Shown here one piece after another: positions 15,443 through 64,000 of a stretch of 64,000 bases of DNA. This stretch comes from Fistulifera solaris. Lineage: Eukaryota > Bacillariophyta > Bacillariophyceae > Naviculales > Stauroneidaceae. Within the stretch, counting starts at the first letter, position 1. Each line of letters begins with the position of its first letter. The stretch spans positions 868,001 to 932,000 of the forward strand of contig AP026128.1 in NCBI GenBank assembly GCA_030295235.1, written 5' to 3'. The notes below the pieces were generated by a model. That model saw only the letters and a list, made by a program, of their open reading frames with translations, ran no database searches and had not been told where the DNA came from. Made by a program: the position numbers and the translations under genes.

Positions 15443-15847
15443 CTTACTTTTGAATATCTCTTGGACCCTTTTTACTCCGCAGCAACAAACAATGACATGG
15501 ATAAGGACGACAATGCTTCAACAATTCGCAGTTCTTTGACAGAACAGAATTCGAGGGAATAATGACAGTGTCACGTTTCGAAAGTCGTACAGGTACCGAA
15601 CCTCCGCACAACTGACATTATACACTATAGTCAAAGTGGGGTATAGAAATTTTAGTTACCGGTAGTTTACGCGACGTCCATACGCACGTCGTCCAGACGA
15701 TATTTTTGCGTGATCTTCTCCTCCACCCATGACAAGAAAGTGTTTGTTGATTATTTTCCTTTTATTTTATTCCATGAGAAATTTCTTCTCGTTTGTTTCA
15801 ACAAAGCCGTAATTCTAAACATCAAGAACCAGTCGACAAGAGAGAAG
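15443..15847. other. Divergent intergenic region
   Basis: About 400 bp between the divergent hydroxylase and NOP14 genes. It holds ACTATAGTCAAAGTG at 15624-15638, an inverted match to the CACTTTGGCCTATAGT box of the dispersed repeat module, without the hairpin half. No gene seen. Confidence 0.5.
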
Positions 15848-18800
15848 ATGGGAAAACGCAAAACTAGGTCGAAGCGGTCTGCTTCGTCGCTTCCAAAAGG
15901 CCTCCCTGTTCGAAATGTTGGCGGAAGCAACCCATTTGAAGTATCGGCGGCTCACAAGCGTCCAAAATTTCAAGTGCACAATCGCGTTACATCCAAACAA
16001 CCTCAGGCCCCTTCGAAGCTTGCACAGGCACTGCAGAAACGAAAACATCAAGTTCAGAGCGCTTACAAAGCATCGAAAAAGGCCAATGTGTTTGCCGATA
16101 ACCGTATTGGTGAATACGACGATACGATGACAGCCGAACAACAAAATCTCGCTCGTTTGGTCAGGGAACGAAGTCGCCAATCTAAAAAACATGCGAAATA
16201 TTCTCTTGAGGATGACGATATCTTGACGCATCGCGGAAAAGCTGTGGACCAGATACAACATCATAATATTGTTCTGTCGGATGATGAAGACGAGGATGCC
16301 GGTAATTTAGACGCTGCGGATACGGCGCTGCATTTTGGTGGGGGCGAAAACTCAACGAAGGAAAAGTTTGATTATTATGGCAATCAGGCCGAGGGCACTG
16401 CGGAACGAATGGCTCAACTCTACGAGAAGCGAAAGATGGATTTGGACGACCTTATTCTGCGTCGAAAGATATTGAAAGCGGAGAAGATGCAATCGAAGGA
16501 GCATCAAGCCGAACGATTCGCCGCGTTGGATGAGTCGTTTGATCAAATTGCGGCGCAACTCCAATTCCGCGACAAAGAAAAGGAAATTCGACAGCACTTG
16601 GCTTCCAAACGTGAGGGGACGCTGTCTCCTGAGGATGCTGAAATGGCGGACTGGGACAAGGAAATGAAAGAGTATTTACATGTCCAACGTAAAGTCAAGG
16701 CGAGTGACCGAACTAAGACGCCAGAGGAGATCGCGAAAGAGGAAGCAGAAAGATTGCACAAGCTTGAAACTCGACGTTTGGCTCGAATGAACGGTGACTT
16801 TGAAGATGATGACTTTTCTGATCTTTCCGATAATGAGACGAAAGGGAAAAGGAAAAGGCGGAAGAAAGACAACGCAAATCCTGAAGAACTGTCAGATTCC
16901 GATGATGACGAAACAGATGACGAAAAGGTTACAACACGCTTTACTGCCGATGGGTTGGTACGAGTAAACAAGGATGGAATAGTTGTTGGGAAAGCAGGAG
17001 AAGAGATTGATGGCAGTGACGAAGATGACGAAGAGGATGATACGCCCAAAGAAACTCCCGCGCTTGATTTGCCAGCTCCATTGGAAGTTAGAACTAGAGT
17101 TAATGCTAGTTACCGTGCGAAGGAACAGTATGATGGTAACGAGTCATGGTTCACAGGTATCGTCGAAGCCGTGCACAATGATTCAAAGGGCGGTTTCAAA
17201 TATGATGTGAGATATGATGACGGCGATTTCGAGGAGGAAGTTGAACCCCAATTTATCAGAGTCTTAGCCAGGTCGGCAGAAGAACTCGAAAAGGAAGACG
17301 AAGCGACAGCGAAGGATTCGGATATAAAATTCAAGCGACAATTAGCCAAGGAAAAAGCTAGGTATGTTTTCAAAAATGTTTTGTTGGTGTTCGCTCCGGC
17401 TTCGCGTTTGCAAGAGATTTCTCTTGATTGCATTTGTTCTGGTCAAGGTGTGGGCGTTTTGCTCTACGCTTGGGCTACGATGAGAGCTTGCACCCATAGT
17501 GATTTATGTCACAATAGTACCTTTGAATAAGAGACGTCATTCATTGGTCTCCTTGACAGGCACATTACTCACGTTCGCCCTTAGGTCTCAGATTCCTTTT
17601 GTTTTCGAAGTACCTACCACACTTGAAGCATTACATGATATCATTGCAACACATGCGACTACTGGTAAAGAAGCTTCACTCATTATGAGCCGGATACACA
17701 AAGCTAATTCTGTGAGACTTGATCGAAGAAACAGCGAAAAGATGCAGAACTTTTATGATGTTTTAATTCGTCGATTTATCGCTGTCGGTGACGCGATTCA
17801 CAAGTCAGGCGATGGCGGTGCTGAACTTGGTCGTTATGCGCAACTTGACGCATTGGTCAAACTAATGTATGATATGGCACAGGATGCCCCGGAGAGCGCG
17901 GCGGCTGTTTGGAGTCGTAGGCTTGGGTTCTTCGAAAACGCGCACGCCAAACGTTTGAGGGACTCAGAATTTGTGCGCGATGACGGCGAAGAAGCATTTT
18001 CAGCTTGGCCTTCGACAGGAGTTTTTCTAGCGCTCCGTGCTCTCTGTCATATATTCCCTGCAACTGATCTTCGACACCAGATTGTTACACCTGCGGTGTT
18101 GCTGCTTGGGCAAATTGTATCTCACACACCTGTTGCTACAACACACGACTTGGCAATGGGCATCCTTCATGCCGGTTTGCTAATCGAATACACAAGAGAA
18201 GCGAAGAGGGTATCACCGGAGGCTCATGGATTTCTTGCCGGTGTAATTCGGCTGTTTGCAGCGAAAGAGGAAGAGCGCCGACTTCGGCAACCAGTTCCAA
18301 GTTTGGAGCATGCTGCTGAAGAATCCCATTTCACACATCTTCGAATCGGTGCGTCGCGTTATACCGGCGAAGACTTACCGCAACTTTCACTAGAGAAACA
18401 GTTTCTTGATGACGATTCTACTCCAGCCGCTTTGTTGAATACGGCCTTACAGCTAGCGCAAGTTTCAGTGCAAAATTTGAACGCGTCTTTGTTTTCAGCT
18501 GGAACGGAAGCATTTTTCGAATTAACGGCAAGCATCCTTGCTATTGATCCTAAAGCCAAAAATGCCCTCTTCCTTCGGTGATACAAAAGCTGTTGCCTCT
18601 TCGGCGTCGTCTCTGTCGCTTTGTCTGAGCTCTGCACGATCTCCATTGAAAAGACGACAAGGATCTTCTATTCAAGAGAAAGCAATCAAGACTCTTGCTC
18701 CTCGACTTGAAGATCCCGAGAGGTATTCTATGTCGAAGGATAAGGGGAAAAGTGCAACACAAGCGGCTGCTGATCGTGTGCGCCGCGAGTACAAGCGTGA

Positions 18801-20384: not shown

Positions 20385-21593
20385 CTAGCGCATTGGACGA
20401 AGGCGGGCTTTGCCATTACCTCTTCGCGAAATTCTCTCTTTGTAATCAATGGCGCGACTGCTTGGAACAAACGTAATGTCTTGTAAGTCCGGAGGTTCCA
20501 ATTTTCCGAATCTTCGCTTCAATGGAGAAAGGATTGCTGCGGCTGACGGCTTCCAGAATACTGCATTCTTCCTTTTATTCCAAGCATCCTTGTCCATGGA
20601 TGCCAAGACATCCCACATGTTAAAGACTTCCACATTTTCTGGCTTGTCTGGCATGTTTCGTTTCGCCTGACGCTGCTTGAGCTGATTCCATGCTGCCTCT
20701 AAATCCTCATAGTTGAAGAAGAGTGGAGTTTCTTGTCGTTGACCCGTAATCAGTCCTTTAATGGGATGTCGCTTCCGTAACGCCGGACAATGAAAGACAG
20801 GAATACCGGTGTATCCTTCCATATGTGCCGTACCCGGGGGCGCTGTGCTGGCTCCTTTTCGTTCTCGTTTATTACGGCGGCGCATAATGTTCAGTCCCTC
20901 CAAGGCCGAATTCCCCAATATGACAGTTTGCGCATCTTGTGCTGCTGTTTCACTTTGCAGTCCCACTCGTTCTCTTCCCTTGCAGCGAGCGGCGTAAAAC
21001 AGTTGTCGTTTGGGAGGTACAATTTTGTAACGAAGCGAAGCACCCTGAGACGTGTCAAATTTTCCCGTGAGAGCATCCGCGGGCGCCCCGGTGGGTAACC
21101 CACTGCCCAGGTTGGTCGCTTGTCGCAACGCACGAGTCAAACTGAGTGAAGTAACGCGAACATCAGTAGATTGCATGGCGTCCATCTGTTTCATTTCCGC
21201 ATGAGCCGCAATGGCGTCGTCGGGGTCCATGTAATACAAAGCTACCGTCCGAACTTCGGTCCGCTCTTCGGAAACGCTCTGTGGGTTGGAAGACGATGCC
21301 GCGGCCCGCGATTCTTGCACAACTTCATCCAAATCACTCAACTTTTCCATACTCATGTAGGGACTGCCCCAGGGCGTTGTAACGGCAAAGACGGGATGAC
21401 CCGCCACGCGTTCGTAGGGAGTGCGTGCATACGTTGCCGATCCAAACAACGAACCGAAATTCAAGAAACGGCGCGTCGATGTCAGCACAGCGTTGGGCAA
21501 ATTTTCGGCAACGACTGCTTCGGTTACCAGCAGCGCAAGTAGCAGAGGATGGAGTCTTGGTTTCATTTTGATGTGTCTTGTGTTGGATAGCAT
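20385..21593 (-). CDS. TIC22: Tic22-like plastid protein import component
   Basis: 402 residues; an alternative start at 21566 (MKPRLHP) places the hydrophobic LLLALLVTEAVVA at the very N-terminus as a signal peptide. The middle shows the Tic22 pattern: a first repeat with DPDDAIAAHAEMKQ...VRVTSLSLTRAL and a second with GIPVFHCPALRKR...PLFFNYEDLEAAWNQLK. Tic22 is a soluble intermembrane chaperone that passes precursors between the outer and inner translocons. In diatoms it would lie between the inner plastid membranes. The C-terminal ~90 residues are basic and extend beyond the usual family length. Single exon. Confidence 0.75.
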   Translation of the reverse strand: MLSNTRHIKMKPRLHPLLLALLVTEAVVAENLPNAVLTSTRRFLNFGSLFGSATYARTPYERVAGHPVFAVTTPWGSPYMSMEKLSDLDEVVQESRAAASSSNPQSVSEERTEVRTVALYYMDPDDAIAAHAEMKQMDAMQSTDVRVTSLSLTRALRQATNLGSGLPTGAPADALTGKFDTSQGASLRYKIVPPKRQLFYAARCKGRERVGLQSETAAQDAQTVILGNSALEGLNIMRRRNKRERKGASTAPPGTAHMEGYTGIPVFHCPALRKRHPIKGLITGQRQETPLFFNYEDLEAAWNQLKQRQAKRNMPDKPENVEVFNMWDVLASMDKDAWNKRKNAVFWKPSAAAILSPLKRRFGKLEPPDLQDITFVPSSRAIDYKERISRRGNGKARLRPMR

Positions 21594-56499: not shown

Positions 56500-57616
56500 A
56501 TGGGTAAAAACAAGCGTTCAAAAAGGAAACAGAGGGCGCGGGGAAGCCAAGGCCATGATGTGAAGGCGGCGGCGACGGAGGGAAACAAAGAAGAATCTTC
56601 TGCAACTTCTATAGGGGAAAAGAGAAAGCACATTGTCACGGAATCATGCGCGACATCGGCTGCCAAACGACCCAGACAAGGTACGTTTCAAAAGCCATTT
56701 GTTTCGCACGCTTCGAAGCCGAACTCGTTGTTTTTTCTCCAACGTGTCACGGTCAATATGATGTGCCAGATTGAAGCATTTCGAAAGGCAAAATGCCATT
56801 CAGAAGTGCTCTGAATTGCGGGTGTGATATCTGTATTATTTACAATTCAAACTTAGATGTTCTCAATAGCAATTTAGATAATTTTGAACTCCATTCTAAC
56901 GATTACTTGCTCGTCAATCGTTTGAGACAGAAACGGAAGGTCCGAGCCAGAGTACACAAGAAGAACCCAGTTTCCCTTATCCCACTGATCCGGACGATCA
57001 CTGCGAATCACCGATCGACTCGTATCAGGATGTTCTTCCACTCCTTCGCTTGCTTCGAAATAACCGACAGCCTGACGCATTTACAATCTACGATCCTTAC
57101 TACTGTGATGGTGCTGTAAAGGACAACTTTGCCAAATTGGGCTTTCCCAACGTTTACAACCAGAAAGAAGATTGCTACAGCATATGGACAGATGCTCACA
57201 AATATCCAAAGTTTGATGTATTTGTGACAAATCCTCCGTACAGCGGCGATCACATCGAAAAGCTTATGAAGCATGTCACGTCAAAAGAATTTGGCAATCG
57301 GCCTTGGTTTCTGTTGATGCCCAACTGGGTCCACAAAAAGGACTATTTTGTGAATTTAACAAAAACACTCAATGTGTTTTATATAGTTCCAAGAAAACGA
57401 TATGTGTATAAACCTCCCCAGAATTTCCGAGAGTCCAAGAAAAGCGATGTTCACAAGAAATCATCGCCGTTTGTGAGCATGTGGTACATTTATGGAGGAA
57501 ATGAAGCCATGAACAACAAACTGATACAACATTTCCTTCGCTCCGAATCGGCCAATTCCTGTGACTTGGCACGGAGCAAAAGTGCTCTGCGCGATTTGCG
57601 GCGCAAGAAGCGATAA
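56500..57616 (+). CDS. Methyltransferase-like protein with NPPY motif
   Basis: Exons 56500-56680 and 56931-57616 flank a 250-bp intron (GTACGT...ACAG); 288 residues. The basic N-terminus (MGKNKRSKRKQRARG) suggests a nucleus or nucleolus. The second part has an AdoMet-type layout: AFTIYDPYYCDG, then FDVFVTNPPYSGDHIEKLMK, where NPPY is the signature of N6-adenine and related methylases. PWFLLMPNWVHKKDY follows and the C-terminus is basic (RDLRRKKR). The NPPY motif argues for a nucleic acid or protein-glutamine methylase. The glycine-rich AdoMet loop is not obvious, so activity is uncertain. Confidence 0.6.
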
Positions 57617-58431: not shown

Positions 58432-61400
58432 ATGTCAATGTCTAATTCGTTTTCGACAAACTGGCGCATGAAACATCCCTCGCTTCCCAAAACACTACTT
58501 GATGACGAATCAGACGAGCAACTAAAGCATGTGAACAATCTGTTTAAAAAGGGATCTTTGATAGGCGCTGCTATTTGGGTGTTTTTGCTCTTTCTAGTTC
58601 TCCGCTACTCGCCTGCCGAGAGCTATGAAGAACCTTGGGGACTAGAACAAACAACACATCTTATTGTCTGCGTTGTTCTTTGCGCATCGAATGGATCAAG
58701 AATTGTGCCGATATTTCTACGAGAACTGAATTTCCGCTTTATGAAAAGTGGTTTTCTCGCAAGTGCTTTATCTGTACAAGTGATTGCTATCGTTTCGAAT
58801 TTCATCATGTGGTATGTTCCAAGTCCAGTGCTGGTTGATGAATACAGCGGTTTGCGGTTTCACATGGTGCGCTGGGCAGAGTGGACAGCCTTGGCATTTA
58901 TCATGACGTTCTTGACGTGTAATCTCAACGCAACGAGCGGCTCAGAACAGGGAAAAGTAAACTTTGTCTATCCCACATTGCTAGCACTGAGTACGCTTTG
59001 TGGAATGCTTTTTCCACTATGTCATGACGCTACCTCATGGTGGATTGTTATGACATTCGCGTGGCTTTCTTTCAATGCGATCTACGTCCTCAGTATATCG
59101 ACGAAGAAAAAACGTACGCTTTTCATCAGAAGACTATCGAGAATACAACAAATTCATCACCTCACGAAGCAAACATTGACCTCTCTCGATCTGCTTACAA
59201 TTTGGCGCTTGCGTGCGCGTCGACGTGGACGATGCTCTCTGTTGTTTTCACCTTTATGTGCTTTACCAATAAGGTTGCTCCGCCTGAAAGCTGGTTGAAT
59301 CATCCTGCGAATCCAGTAATATTCACTCGCGACCTTCGAGGTCGCATCGAAGGTGATCTACCTTGGCTGTGTTTTTGATACATACGACAAGGTGTTTGAC
59401 GAAAAAGCTATCGCACTTCGCCGTTTAGAAGAAATGAGAAACTTTATGTGTGCGGTGTGGACGTCGTCGTCAGATGCAATTGTTTACGTTCTGGATGGAA
59501 ACGATCACATAAGCGCCAGAATCAGTCCTGCTTTTCTCAGGTTGATTGGAGTTGCCAGCGGAAGAGCTTGTTCGCTTTTGAGACGAGGAGATGTTTCGCT
59601 GATTATCGATATATCACCCAGCAAAGGTATCTTTCACGTTTTCGCCATGGATCTGACAAAAGAAGTAACACGGGAAGACGTTACGAACGCCCTTAACGCA
59701 AAAAAGTTAGTCTTCGAGCAAAAGGAAGACCTGACAATTGACGAGGCAAACATCGTGGGCGTCGCCGAACTTATTCTTCATGAGACGAAAGTGCCTGGAC
59801 GAACCATGAAAGTCTTTCATAAGATCGAAAACGACCTAAAAGTGAGCATCCCGTGCGAGGCGACAGTGGCGGATCTTGAAGGGAACAGCAGGGTGGTTGT
59901 TCTTCGTGATATCTCTGATAGGCTGCAGCGCTTTGAAGCCGAAAAGCTCTTAATTGAAGAAGTGACATCGCGAAAGAAAGACACCGAAGCGAATAACTTC
60001 ACGCGACATGAAGTAAAGAATGGCATCTTGGCCTCCATAGGCATCCTAGACCATATCAGAGAGCTGATGCCCCAGGTGACTGTACCCAAGGGTGCAAGTG
60101 AACCATTCGTGGAGGGTTCTAGCCAAAAAGATCAAGTAACTGATGCACTCACCGAGCTCGACAGCACCCTCCGTGACATACTAGACACGATTCATGATGA
60201 AGCAATGGCAAAGAAATCATTTACGGCGAATACGCCCCCAGAAAAGATGTTTTAAGAGTCCGTGACGTTTTGGATTCAATACGACAGTGTGGAGCATCAA
60301 AAGGTTTCCTTTGCATATCAAACCCCACTTTCCTCGTGTGTATCTCGACCGTCAGCTTCTCCGGTACATCTATCGAAACGCTCTATCCAATGCATGCAGG
60401 TATGGGCAGCACGGTGGAACCGTGGAAAGTTTTGTGCACTACGACCAAGGCACGCGTATTTTTACCCTGAAAGTGACAAATCTACCCGGGGAAGGTCATG
60501 AAGAGCTTTTGGAGTTGGATGATGACCAAGTACGCAGCATATTCGAACCGGGCGTGCGACTTGCTCAGAACCACCACCCTTCTGCCAAGAATGCACAGGC
60601 TATCAACAAAGAATCATCGGGCAATGGTGCGTGGATCATGCAGAAGTGCGCAGAATGTCTCGGCGGCTCGTGCAGTATGCAATTTGACGAGAACGGTGCA
60701 ACTTTCACCTTCGTATGTACAATCGACGCTGAGGAACGCCCGTCGCCGACATCAAAAACCACATTCTGTCTTCCAGCAGGCACATGGGGTATCTTCATTG
60801 ATGATTCTGGAATTCAGCGGAAGCTAATGGATCGATTTCTTGCTCAAGCAGGAATTGAGCAGTCCCGACGAGTTATCCTCGGTGCCAACGCCGACGAAGT
60901 TTACTGCTTTGTCGACACCGTAATCAAGCTTGTGAGCGAAAACCCGAATGACAAGTTTCTGCTAATAGCTGACGAGAATCTGGACATCGAATTCGATGGT
61001 CAGAGGAACGCTACTGTTTCTGGTTCCTTATGTGTTGAACAAATCATAGGGAAGCTCGATGAGAAGTCGGAGAAGCGACTGCTTGCGCTTATTCGGAGCG
61101 CGAATGACTCTTTGTCAGATCTGAACCTTTACAGAAATCGGTCTCATGGCGTTTTAATGAAGGAGCCATTTAAGAAGGGGGATGTCCTCGGCATAATTAA
61201 ACCGTTCTGGTATAACCGCTTTTCAGAAGAAGAAACAACAGATACCGCTGAATCTGCAATTTATGAAGGTAGCGATGAATTTCAGCTACACGGGCCCTCT
61301 GAAGAGGATCTGCGCGAATCTTTACGGGTAATCAGAGCACTGTTGTCGGTTGAAAACAATGAAAAGCTGCGAAGAAGATGGCACCCTCTCCGTGACCGTC

Positions 61401-61570
61401 TGCACGCCCTGAAAGGGGATCTTATGAGCATGATGGCGAAAGATAAACTTGCTGATGTAATGAAACACATTGATAAGTTCCTCGCCTGCTCTGTATTTCC
61501 TGAAAGCTTTTTGATTGATTGGGAAGCAGTCGAGCAGATTGTGGAGTACGCTCTCGCGGAAAGTCCTTGA
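58432..61570 (+). CDS. Rhodopsin-like hybrid histidine kinase, copy 1
   Basis: About 1,045 residues across frames. Eight membrane helices form the N-terminus. Helix 4 holds RWAEW (Arg codon 58870, Glu codon 58879) and helix 8 holds EVASK (Lys codon 59350-59352), the places of the counterion and retinal lysine in microbial rhodopsins; the extra first helix matches enzyme rhodopsins. A PAS-like region follows (VVVLRDISDRLQRFEAE), then the dimerisation His in NFTRHEVKNGI (codon 60007), ATPase boxes NALSNACRYG and GNGAW, a receiver (FIDDSG, LIADEN, MKEPFKK) and an HPt-like HALKGD (His codon 61403). Frames rejoin with one base added at A6 59107-59112, T4 60250-60253 and A4 60299-60302; another break lies near 59325. 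Confidence 0.75.
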
Positions 61571-62355: not shown

Positions 62356-64000
62356 ATGTCCTCTTCAAGCATCGCCAGCGGTCGAACAAGGCATCCATCG
62401 TTGCCGAAAACATTGCTTGATGATGAAGCAGATGCAAGAGTAAAGGTTGTTGATCGCCTCTTCAAAAAAGGCGCTTTGATAGGCGCAGCAATTTGGTTGT
62501 TGTTGCTCTTCTTGGTCCTCCGTTATTCGCCAATCGATAGCTATGAAGAACCGTGGGGGCTGGAGCAGGCTACGCATTTCATCGTCTGGGTTGTTCTGTG
62601 CGCATCGAATGGATCAAGAATAGTCCCCCTTCTTCTCCGCGAAATGGATCTCAGCTTTATAAAAGTGGTTTTCTCGCAAGCGCCCTTTCTGTGCAAGCAA
62701 TTGCCATTGTTTCCAATTTCATCATGTGGTATTTTCCGAGTCCAGTGTTGATAGATGAGTACAGTGGCTTGCGGTTTCACATGGTGCGCTGGGCAGAGTG
62801 GACAGCCTTGGCATTTATTATGACGTTTTTGACGTGTAATTTGCAAGCAGCTGTCCAGCAAGGAGAGGGGAAAGTGAATTTTGTCTATCCCACATTGCTG
62901 GCATTGAGTACGTTTTGCGGGATGCTTTTTCCACTTTGTCGTGATGCTACTTCATGGTGGATCGTTATGACAGTCGCGTGGCTTTGTTTCAATGCAATCT
63001 ACGTCCTCGTCTATCGACGAAGGTCAGTTTATTATCTTCACAAAATAACTTTCGAAGACGCGACAGTTTCATTACCACACGAAGCAAACATCGACCTCTC
63101 TCGATCTGCATATAATCTGGCGCTAGCTTGCGCATCGACGTGGACGATGCTCTCCGTTGTCTTTACATTCATGTGCTTTACGAACAAGCTTGCCCCGACC
63201 GACAGCTGGCTGAATCATCCTGCAAATCCAGTAGTATTCACCACGTTTTTCGAGATTGTATCCAAGGTCATTTACCTGAGTTGCATCTTTGAAACGTACG
63301 ACAAGGTGTTTGACCAGAAAGCTATCGCATTTCGCCGTCTAGAAGAAATGAGGAATTTCATGTGTGCGGTGTGGGCGTCGTCGTCAGATGCCATTGTTTA
63401 CGTGCTGGATGGGAACGATCATATCAGCGCCAGGATCAGTCCTGCGTTCCTTAAGTTGATTGGGGTGACCAGCGGAAGGGCTTGTTCTCTTTTGGGACGA
63501 GGGGATGTTTCTTTGATTATCGATATATCACCGAGCAAGAGTTCCTTTACTGTCTTCGCCATGGACTTGACGAAAGAAGTAACACGCGAGGACGTGACGA
63601 ATGCCCTTAATGCGAAGAAGTTCCTCTTTGAGCAAACAGAAGACGTGACGGTCGACGAAGCAAACATTGTGGCAGTCGCTGAGTTGATACTTCACGAGAC
63701 CAAGATACCCGGACAAACCATGAAAGTCTTTCACAAGATCGAACATGACCTGAGAGTGAGCATTCCGTGCGAGGCGACAGTGGCTAATCTTGAAGGCAAT
63801 AGCAGAGTGGTTGTTCTTCGCGACATTTCTGATAGATTGCAGCGCTTTGAAGCCGAAAAGCTACTTATTGAAGAAGTGACATCGCGAAAGAAAGATACCG
63901 AAGCAAATAACTTCACGCGGCATGAAGTAAAGAATGGCATCTTGGCCTCCATAGGCATTCTGGATCATATCAAAGAGTTGATGGCTCAACGAAGGGTCAT
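62356..64000 (+). CDS. Rhodopsin-like hybrid histidine kinase, copy 2 (5' part, runs off window)
   Basis: Starts MSSSSIASGRTRHPS and is very similar to copy 1 from HPSLPKTLLDDE onward. One apparent break at AAAA 62661-62664 is cured by one A; after it the frame is open to the window end. The eight-helix region is complete: RWAEW (Arg codon 62787, Glu codon 62796) and EIVSK (Lys codon 63264-63266). The loop before the last two helices differs from copy 1 (VYRRRSVYYLHKITFEDAT). The PAS-like region and the H-box (His codon 63921) are present. The ATPase, receiver and HPt parts, if kept, lie outside the window. Confidence 0.75.

Follow-up and report, generated by a model that had tools for sequence, protein, structure and literature searches.

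Does a diatom gene encode a rhodopsin that passes its signal down a complete phosphorelay within one protein? The question is raised by a locus in a 64,000-nucleotide stretch of Fistulifera solaris DNA (contig AP026128.1, positions 868,001 to 932,000; hereafter the window, in whose numbering all positions are given). An initial annotation had described 58432–61570 as a single sensor protein, with a rhodopsin-like N-terminus of eight helices followed by DHp, ATPase, receiver and HPt motifs. We find that the locus belongs to a tandem pair of eight-transmembrane (8-TM) sensor kinases under selection, and that the copy readable to its end also has PAS-, receiver- and HPt-like parts. Judged from sequence, kinship of the membrane part with rhodopsins is plausible, not proven, and we see about an even chance that the two genes encode strongly diverged 8-TM histidine-kinase enzyme rhodopsins.

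The annotated locus turned out to be one half of a pair, with a PAS-like part between the membrane part and the kinase; the initial annotation had recorded neither.

58432 to 61570, forward strand: copy 1, sensor kinase gene (translation in three frames, aligned with copy 2)
62356 to 64000, forward strand: copy 2, tandem paralogue, ending at the window end inside DHp (blastn, dN/dS)

The copies share 82% DNA identity across 1,597 bp (blastn), and their alignment contains six gap positions, each of one base, of which four shift the frame and two offset one another. Copy 1 is not the continuous protein frame that had been assumed, as it is broken at least five times: near 59092, 59112 and 59328, with two or more further breaks in the interval from about 60243 to 60300. 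Three-frame translations gave the frame order A-B-C-A across the first three breaks. Frame A carries helices 1 to 6 and, further on, the region from helix 8 to DHp; the stretch in between (the loop past helix 6, then helix 7) is read in B and then C, and the ATPase, receiver and HPt parts are in B. The histidine kinase reading of copy 1 requires these frames to be joined by eye. Copy 2 carries a single 1-bp deletion (approximately 62659). As this lies in the loop preceding the proposed helix B, helices B to G, the PAS-like part and the beginning of DHp need no repair and share one open reading frame (ORF; 62553–63998). The shifts in the kinase part of copy 1 are located only roughly because copy 2 ends in DHp and the window holds no second copy of that part.

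Across 495 codons from gap-free blocks of the joined frames, non-synonymous divergence (dN) was 0.062 and synonymous divergence (dS) 0.83, a dN/dS of 0.074, with no stop codon; the membrane part alone gave 0.079 (250 codons). Thus, both copies look protein-coding and purifying selection has acted on both. Given a ratio of about 0.07 between the copies, the frame shifts most probably reflect mistakes in the assembly or events of very recent date. Each membrane-part shift involves a single base, and one falls on a run of A, a pattern that uncorrected long-read assemblies would give. Introns were rejected as the cause of these membrane-part changes, as the copies align straight through with 1-bp gaps. 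A 50-bp stretch at the start of helix C (58852–58901, equivalent to 62769–62818) is identical in the two copies despite a dS of about 0.8; gene conversion and extra constraint are candidate explanations.

We observed eight hydrophobic segments in each copy with bounds set by eye, in agreement with the annotated helix number. A Kyte–Doolittle scan of the joined readings returned seven (copy 1) and eight (copy 2) segments at a threshold of 1.3, and six and seven at 1.6. RWAEW falls in helix 4 and E-x-x-S-K in helix 8 of both copies, where the annotation had placed them, and the helix count in both is that expected for helices C to G with an additional N-terminal helix. If the first helix is the extra helix of enzyme rhodopsins (TM0), helix 4 would be helix C and helix 8 would be helix G.

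58552 to 58614, forward strand: proposed extra N-terminal helix (TM0), residues 41–61 (hydrophobicity; bounds by eye)
58870 to 58884, forward strand: RWAEW (R147 to W151) in helix 4 of 8, the proposed helix C, with E150 at the position of bacteriorhodopsin D85 (hhalign register on RYADW)
59035 to 59098, forward strand: helix 6, the proposed helix E, spanning the first frame change
59190 to 59264, forward strand: helix 7, the proposed helix F, with W265 at the W182 position and S269 at the expected P186
59313 to 59385, forward strand: helix 8, the proposed helix G, spanning the frame change at about 59328
59338 to 59352, forward strand: EVASK (E302-V-A-S-K306), proposed second counterion and retinal lysine
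62787 to 62801, forward strand: RWAEW of copy 2
63252 to 63266, forward strand: EIVSK of copy 2, in the same open frame as helices B to G

No amino-acid differences separate the copies in helix 4 or helix 7, and eight do so in helix 8. A KK ahead of TM0 and YRRR past helix 6, seen by eye, are consistent with a cytosolic N terminus. Within-helix shuffles produced the broad helix-C motif class in 0.12% of cases, [DE]xxxK in 7.2% and both in 0.008%, figures that carry the caveat that the motifs were picked only after inspection of the sequence.

C-terminal to the membrane part lies a histidine kinase, identified by a HATPase_c match and by a DHp-like segment.

59455 to 59950, forward strand: PAS-like domain that follows the membrane part and precedes the kinase, with approximate bounds (hhalign, 60 PAS_4 segments as template)
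59950 to 60252, forward strand: DHp, with RHEVKNG and the proposed phospho-histidine codon at 60007–60009 (hhalign against 27 HisKA segments)
60347 to 60715, forward strand: catalytic ATP-binding domain (Pfam HATPase_c, E 6.3e-7)
60377 to 60406, 60479 to 60499 and within 60614 to 60640, forward strand: ATPase motifs, namely the N box, NLPGEGH and GNG
60764 to 61225, forward strand: receiver-like domain, bounds approximate (motifs by eye; weak hhalign)
within 60782 to 60808, 60971 to 60973, 61094 to 61111 and 61160 to 61162, forward strand: receiver motifs, namely DD, Asp, Ser region and Lys
61274 to 61567, forward strand: HPt-like domain, with LHALKG at 61400–61417 and its histidine at 61403–61405 (hhalign)

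Of the relay motifs first reported, the ATPase was confirmed by Pfam, and the DHp and HPt segments gave hhalign scores that no shuffle reached (0 of 150 and 0 of 200, respectively), with the Pfam Hpt match (E 0.13) falling under the cut-off. The receiver fared less well: its score was reached by 7 of 200 shuffles, although DD, D, S and K, which we take to be the defining receiver motifs, occur in order. For the PAS-like segment, one of 150 shuffles reached the score and only 30 columns align. The PAS, DHp and HPt identities are therefore supported, not proven, and that of the receiver is weakly supported. An AlphaFold model of low confidence (427 residues, single sequence; pLDDT, the predicted local distance difference test score, 39) did not bear on these assignments. 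The ATPase, receiver and HPt parts were seen in copy 1, as the window stops within the DHp of copy 2. At the junction of ATPase and receiver, a 23-residue Nup188_SH3-like Pfam match (60743–60811, E 7.4e-5) exceeds the family cut-off and is probably due to chance.

Is the membrane part a rhodopsin? The profile search that the initial annotation had proposed for the eight-helix region gave a divided answer: small rhodopsin sets beat shuffled controls, whereas Pfam contained no rhodopsin match at E 10. As the hhalign query we used a two-sequence profile of both copies, with within-helix shuffles as controls. The template 'bac' (12 rhodopsins) scored 36.1 (shuffle mean 15.5; 0 of 200 shuffles reached the score), 'mix' (16) 29.1 (mean 15.9; 0 of 200) and 'bacdiv' (8) 29.0 (mean 15.3; 1 of 200). 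The 'mix' alignment spans helices C to G and sets RWAEW on RYADW, W265 on W182 and Lys306 on K216. A further template, A5 (13 sequences), gave an hhalign probability of 40%; in global mode, the score was reached by 280 of 300 shuffles. The comparison was extended to membrane ORFs with at least five hydrophobic segments, 69 from 800 kb of a Halobacterium genome and one from the window, all single sequences from six-frame ORFs, some of which may be chance frames. One of these proved to be an ordinary rhodopsin and was excluded, leaving 69 controls (28 in an earlier run), none of which reached the sensor's score with 'bac', 'mix' or 'bacdiv' (maxima 21.8, 23.7 and 23.9). When RWAEW, E302 and K306 were held fixed and the rest shuffled within segments, the 'bac' score was reached once in 150.

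Other families were also considered. The heliorhodopsin template (seven sequences) scored 13.5, reached by 156 of 200 shuffles, and HisKA_7TM (PF16927, 29 sequences) scored 17.8, reached by 26 of 200; both were rejected, and no other family match was found among those tested (Pfam scan, HisKA_7TM and heliorhodopsin). Specific kinship with channelrhodopsins was likewise set aside, the templates 'chr' and 'euk4' giving no clear signal. By tblastn, the window proteins had no relatives in the viral contig or genome contig collections. During template collection, ChR2 found no relatives in the viral contigs and the A5 query found one. Of the long open frames near haloarchaeal rhodopsins, three were inspected: one was GC-rich and showed no rhodopsin over the stretch viewed, and in two the rhodopsin follows apparent read-through.

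A substantial body of results weighs against rhodopsin kinship. The PDB sequence search, like Pfam, returned no rhodopsin at E 10. Several templates, among them the larger ones, performed poorly: 'rhoall' (45 sequences) scored 18.6 in a different register (24 of 200 shuffles reached it), 'rhoeuk' (49) scored 20.4 and was weak though in the expected register (13 of 200), 'euk4' (4) scored 16.5 (62 of 200), 'chr' (2) scored 20.5 (12 of 200), and a halo-heavy set of 91 sequences gave a weak 23.8 (4 of 300). The sensor's score was also reached by 4 of the 69 control ORFs with 'rhoeuk' and by 8 with 'rhoall'. True divergent rhodopsins score far higher on 'bac' (ChR2 110.8, GtACR1 98.9 and HcKCR1 77.4). 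When helix C alone was shuffled, the mean fell to 19.3 for 'bac' and 20.0 for 'mix', slightly above the full-shuffle means, so most of the profile signal resides in helix C. With the motifs fixed, the real score was reached by 18 of 150 shuffles for 'mix', 13 for 'bacdiv', 64 for 'rhoeuk' and 41 for 'chr', and per-helix P values were 0.69 (A), 0.14 (B), 0.09 (C), 0.50 (D), 0.67 (E), 0.12 (F) and 0.24 (G). Helices A, B, D, E and F combined gave a Fisher P of 0.35, and all seven 0.18. A cross-helix table showed no preference for matching helices, its best z of 3.1 pairing query F with template G. Because the motif-fixed shuffles and per-helix tests yield so little, evidence for kinship beyond the first-noted motifs is weak.

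MAFFT alone set RWAEW in a different register, which, together with circularity, led us to discard threading of helices B to G on rhodopsins. An AlphaFold model of helices B to G from a four-row alignment reached a pLDDT of 43 and a predicted template modelling score of 0.30, which gives no confidence in the fold. Foldseek searches with this low-confidence model, uninformative as to fold, found nothing at E ≤0.001, and the 50 listed of its 119 matches included no rhodopsin. RWAEW is itself not specific to rhodopsins, as a pattern scan found MVRWAEW in unrelated ORFs of four contigs in the viral collection. The scan returned seven stretches, four of them long ORFs with ASRPG-MVRWAEW (entries L230, L231, L232 and L235), which are presumably of tyrosine-recombinase type, and three of them frames of 20–26 residues. 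For comparison, the PAS, DHp, REC and HPt segments of the sensor kinase, each run on a profile of its respective family, scored 17.5, 20.0, 18.2 and 19.8, values that are not directly comparable between domains of differing length and that place the method near its limit for the whole protein.

The proposed retinal pocket is partly preserved. By alignment, R82, W86, G122, W182 and K216 of bacteriorhodopsin are kept, E150 stands at the D85 position and E302 at that of D212, and two changes are conservative (Y83 to W and D212 to E). Other pocket positions are replaced (Y57 to N, P91 to F, Y185 to L, P186 to S and W189 to F), which counts against a working pocket. The reference residues, invariant or nearly so in A5, were Y57, R82, Y83, W86, P91, G122, Y185, P186, G195, D212 and K216; D212 is invariant in all 13 A5 sequences, and the sensor has glutamate there. 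On helical wheels, E302, S305 and K306 of helix 8 lie 151, 148 and 111 degrees off the hydrophobic direction, with a test on variable residues not significant (P = 0.16), and E150 of helix 4 lies 89 degrees off. The hydrophobic moment of helix 7 is very weak, and W265 and F272 are no more than 57 and 37 degrees off it, which does not point to a pocket position. With E150 at that angle, no significance for helix 8, and W265 and F272 near the hydrophobic side, the helical-wheel evidence on pocket orientation is mixed. What survives of the first reading is the helix order, both carboxylates, the lysine, the profile matches with three templates (in the expected register for helix C and, with 'mix', through helices F and G) and the sensor-kinase architecture; Pfam, PDB, the larger templates and helices A, B, D, E and F on their own lend the rhodopsin reading nothing.

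The strongest competing explanation, less probable than an enzyme rhodopsin but not remote, is an 8-TM sensor from a family outside the libraries, unrelated to rhodopsins, in which RWAEW and ExxSK coincide by chance and ligand binding or membrane sensing would feed the same kinase relay. It would account for the missing hidden Markov model (HMM) and PDB matches, the failure of the larger templates, the silence of the helices outside the first-noted motifs and the occurrence of MVRWAEW in unrelated viral-collection ORFs. It leaves unexplained why, with three templates, a register-correct profile match should outscore the shuffles and the 69 control ORFs, and why both copies should carry Glu, Trp and Lys in the helices, and in the order, predicted for a rhodopsin; nor do HisKA_7TM or heliorhodopsin match in place of rhodopsin. 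A descendant of rhodopsins that kept the fold while its pocket drifted, and that now senses something else or retains the lysine for another reason, seems improbable. The equivalents of P186, Y185, P91 and Y57 were indeed replaced while selection was strong (dN/dS 0.079), but Lys306, Glu302, Glu150, Trp151 and Trp265 are kept in both copies at a dS of about 0.8. A decaying pseudogene pair, suggested by the frame changes of both copies, is very unlikely in view of the dN/dS, the 495 stop-free codons and the single-base, assembly-like character of the membrane-part shifts.

If the genes do encode enzyme rhodopsins, we infer a protein whose membrane domain has cytosolic ends and consists of TM0 and seven rhodopsin helices, followed by a short linker, the PAS-like part, DHp and ATPase, the receiver and HPt. 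Retinal would be bound at Lys306 of the final helix, and its counterions would be Glu150 in helix C and Glu302 in helix G. Isomerization of the retinal would move helices F and G; the linker and then the PAS-like part would carry this movement to DHp, where it would set autophosphorylation of the histidine. From there, phosphate would pass to the receiver aspartate, on to the C-terminal HPt histidine and finally to an outside response regulator. A bolder version, which we offer tentatively and consider rather doubtful, is that the pair represents an undescribed branch of 8-TM histidine-kinase rhodopsins in a secondary-plastid alga, with a complete sensor-to-HPt phosphorelay and a NeoR-like double glutamate, possibly heterodimeric as a tandem pair and seeing unusually red light. 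Were this so, a photoreceptor class described for green algae in the accessible parts of the literature would extend to another algal lineage, with a full phosphorelay in one chain. It would also indicate the extent to which a retinal pocket can diverge, provide a test case for the double-glutamate counterion that is linked to extreme red shift in NeoR, and imply that profile libraries can miss proteins of this kind.

The surroundings of the pair are eukaryotic nuclear DNA by their genes. A Pfam scan of 20 ORFs gave matches that exceed the cut-off to, among others, Sin3, Nop14, Sec7-like HDS, GWT1, eIF-3 zeta, ubiquitin hydrolase and a Tic22-like protein.

20388 to 21593, reverse strand: Tic22-like plastid protein, with a signal-peptide-like N-terminus (by eye)

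This N-terminus hints at a secondary plastid. The Nop14-like gene (15710–18581) is divided between two overlapping frames, by an intron or another assembly shift. An ORF at 57050–57616 carries FVTNPPYSGDH, whose N-P-P-Y motif we take to be methyltransferase-like, and the ORF at 56500 may belong with it.

Published work describes histidine kinase rhodopsins (HKRs) from algae and, in the passages available, names Chlamydomonas and Ostreococcus (PMC7693036; PMC12558739). By these descriptions, Chlamydomonas HKR1/Cop5 and Ostreococcus Ot-HKR resemble the sensor in joining an N-terminal membrane part, a histidine kinase and a receiver in one protein. Unlike them, the sensor has a PAS-like domain before the kinase and an HPt-like end in place of a cyclase; it is also too diverged for an HMM match, has glutamate at D212 and lacks the helix-F proline. 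No diatom histidine kinase rhodopsin appeared among the literature matches listed (titles, starts of abstracts and passages), which largely exclude subscription journals and so leave novelty unproven. The words 'diatom' and 'stramenopile' are absent from the main text of PMC7693036 in the form available, whose table names species by abbreviations, and 'histidine kinase' is absent from the main text of a study of a diatom xanthorhodopsin (PMC10627834). HisKA_7TM kinases (PF16927) share a multi-helix membrane input on a histidine kinase, without a profile match. Bacteriorhodopsin-type proteins and channelrhodopsins share the helix order and, in the 'mix' alignment, the register of RYADW/RYAEW, W182 and K216, whereas true channelrhodopsins score far higher than the sensor on the same template.

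Two enzyme rhodopsins offer the closest terms for the membrane part, as far as the excerpts of their descriptions go. SrRh-PDE has eight TM helices including TM0, with Glu164, Asp292 and Lys296 (PMC7644710), and served as our model for TM0 and for a topology with both termini inside. Its output domain differs, and it was not among the PDB sequence matches at E 10; the sensor resembles it in its proposed TM0 plus seven helices, Glu-Trp in helix C and an acid four residues before the last-helix lysine. NeoR, a Rhizoclosmatium rhodopsin-guanylyl cyclase, has counterions E136 and E262, the lysine K266 and a third acid, D140, at the T89 position (PMC7655827), and acts as a heterodimer with partner cyclases. 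The sensor has Leu154 where NeoR has D140, and NeoR's output is a cyclase, but both would combine two glutamate counterions with a lysine four residues on.

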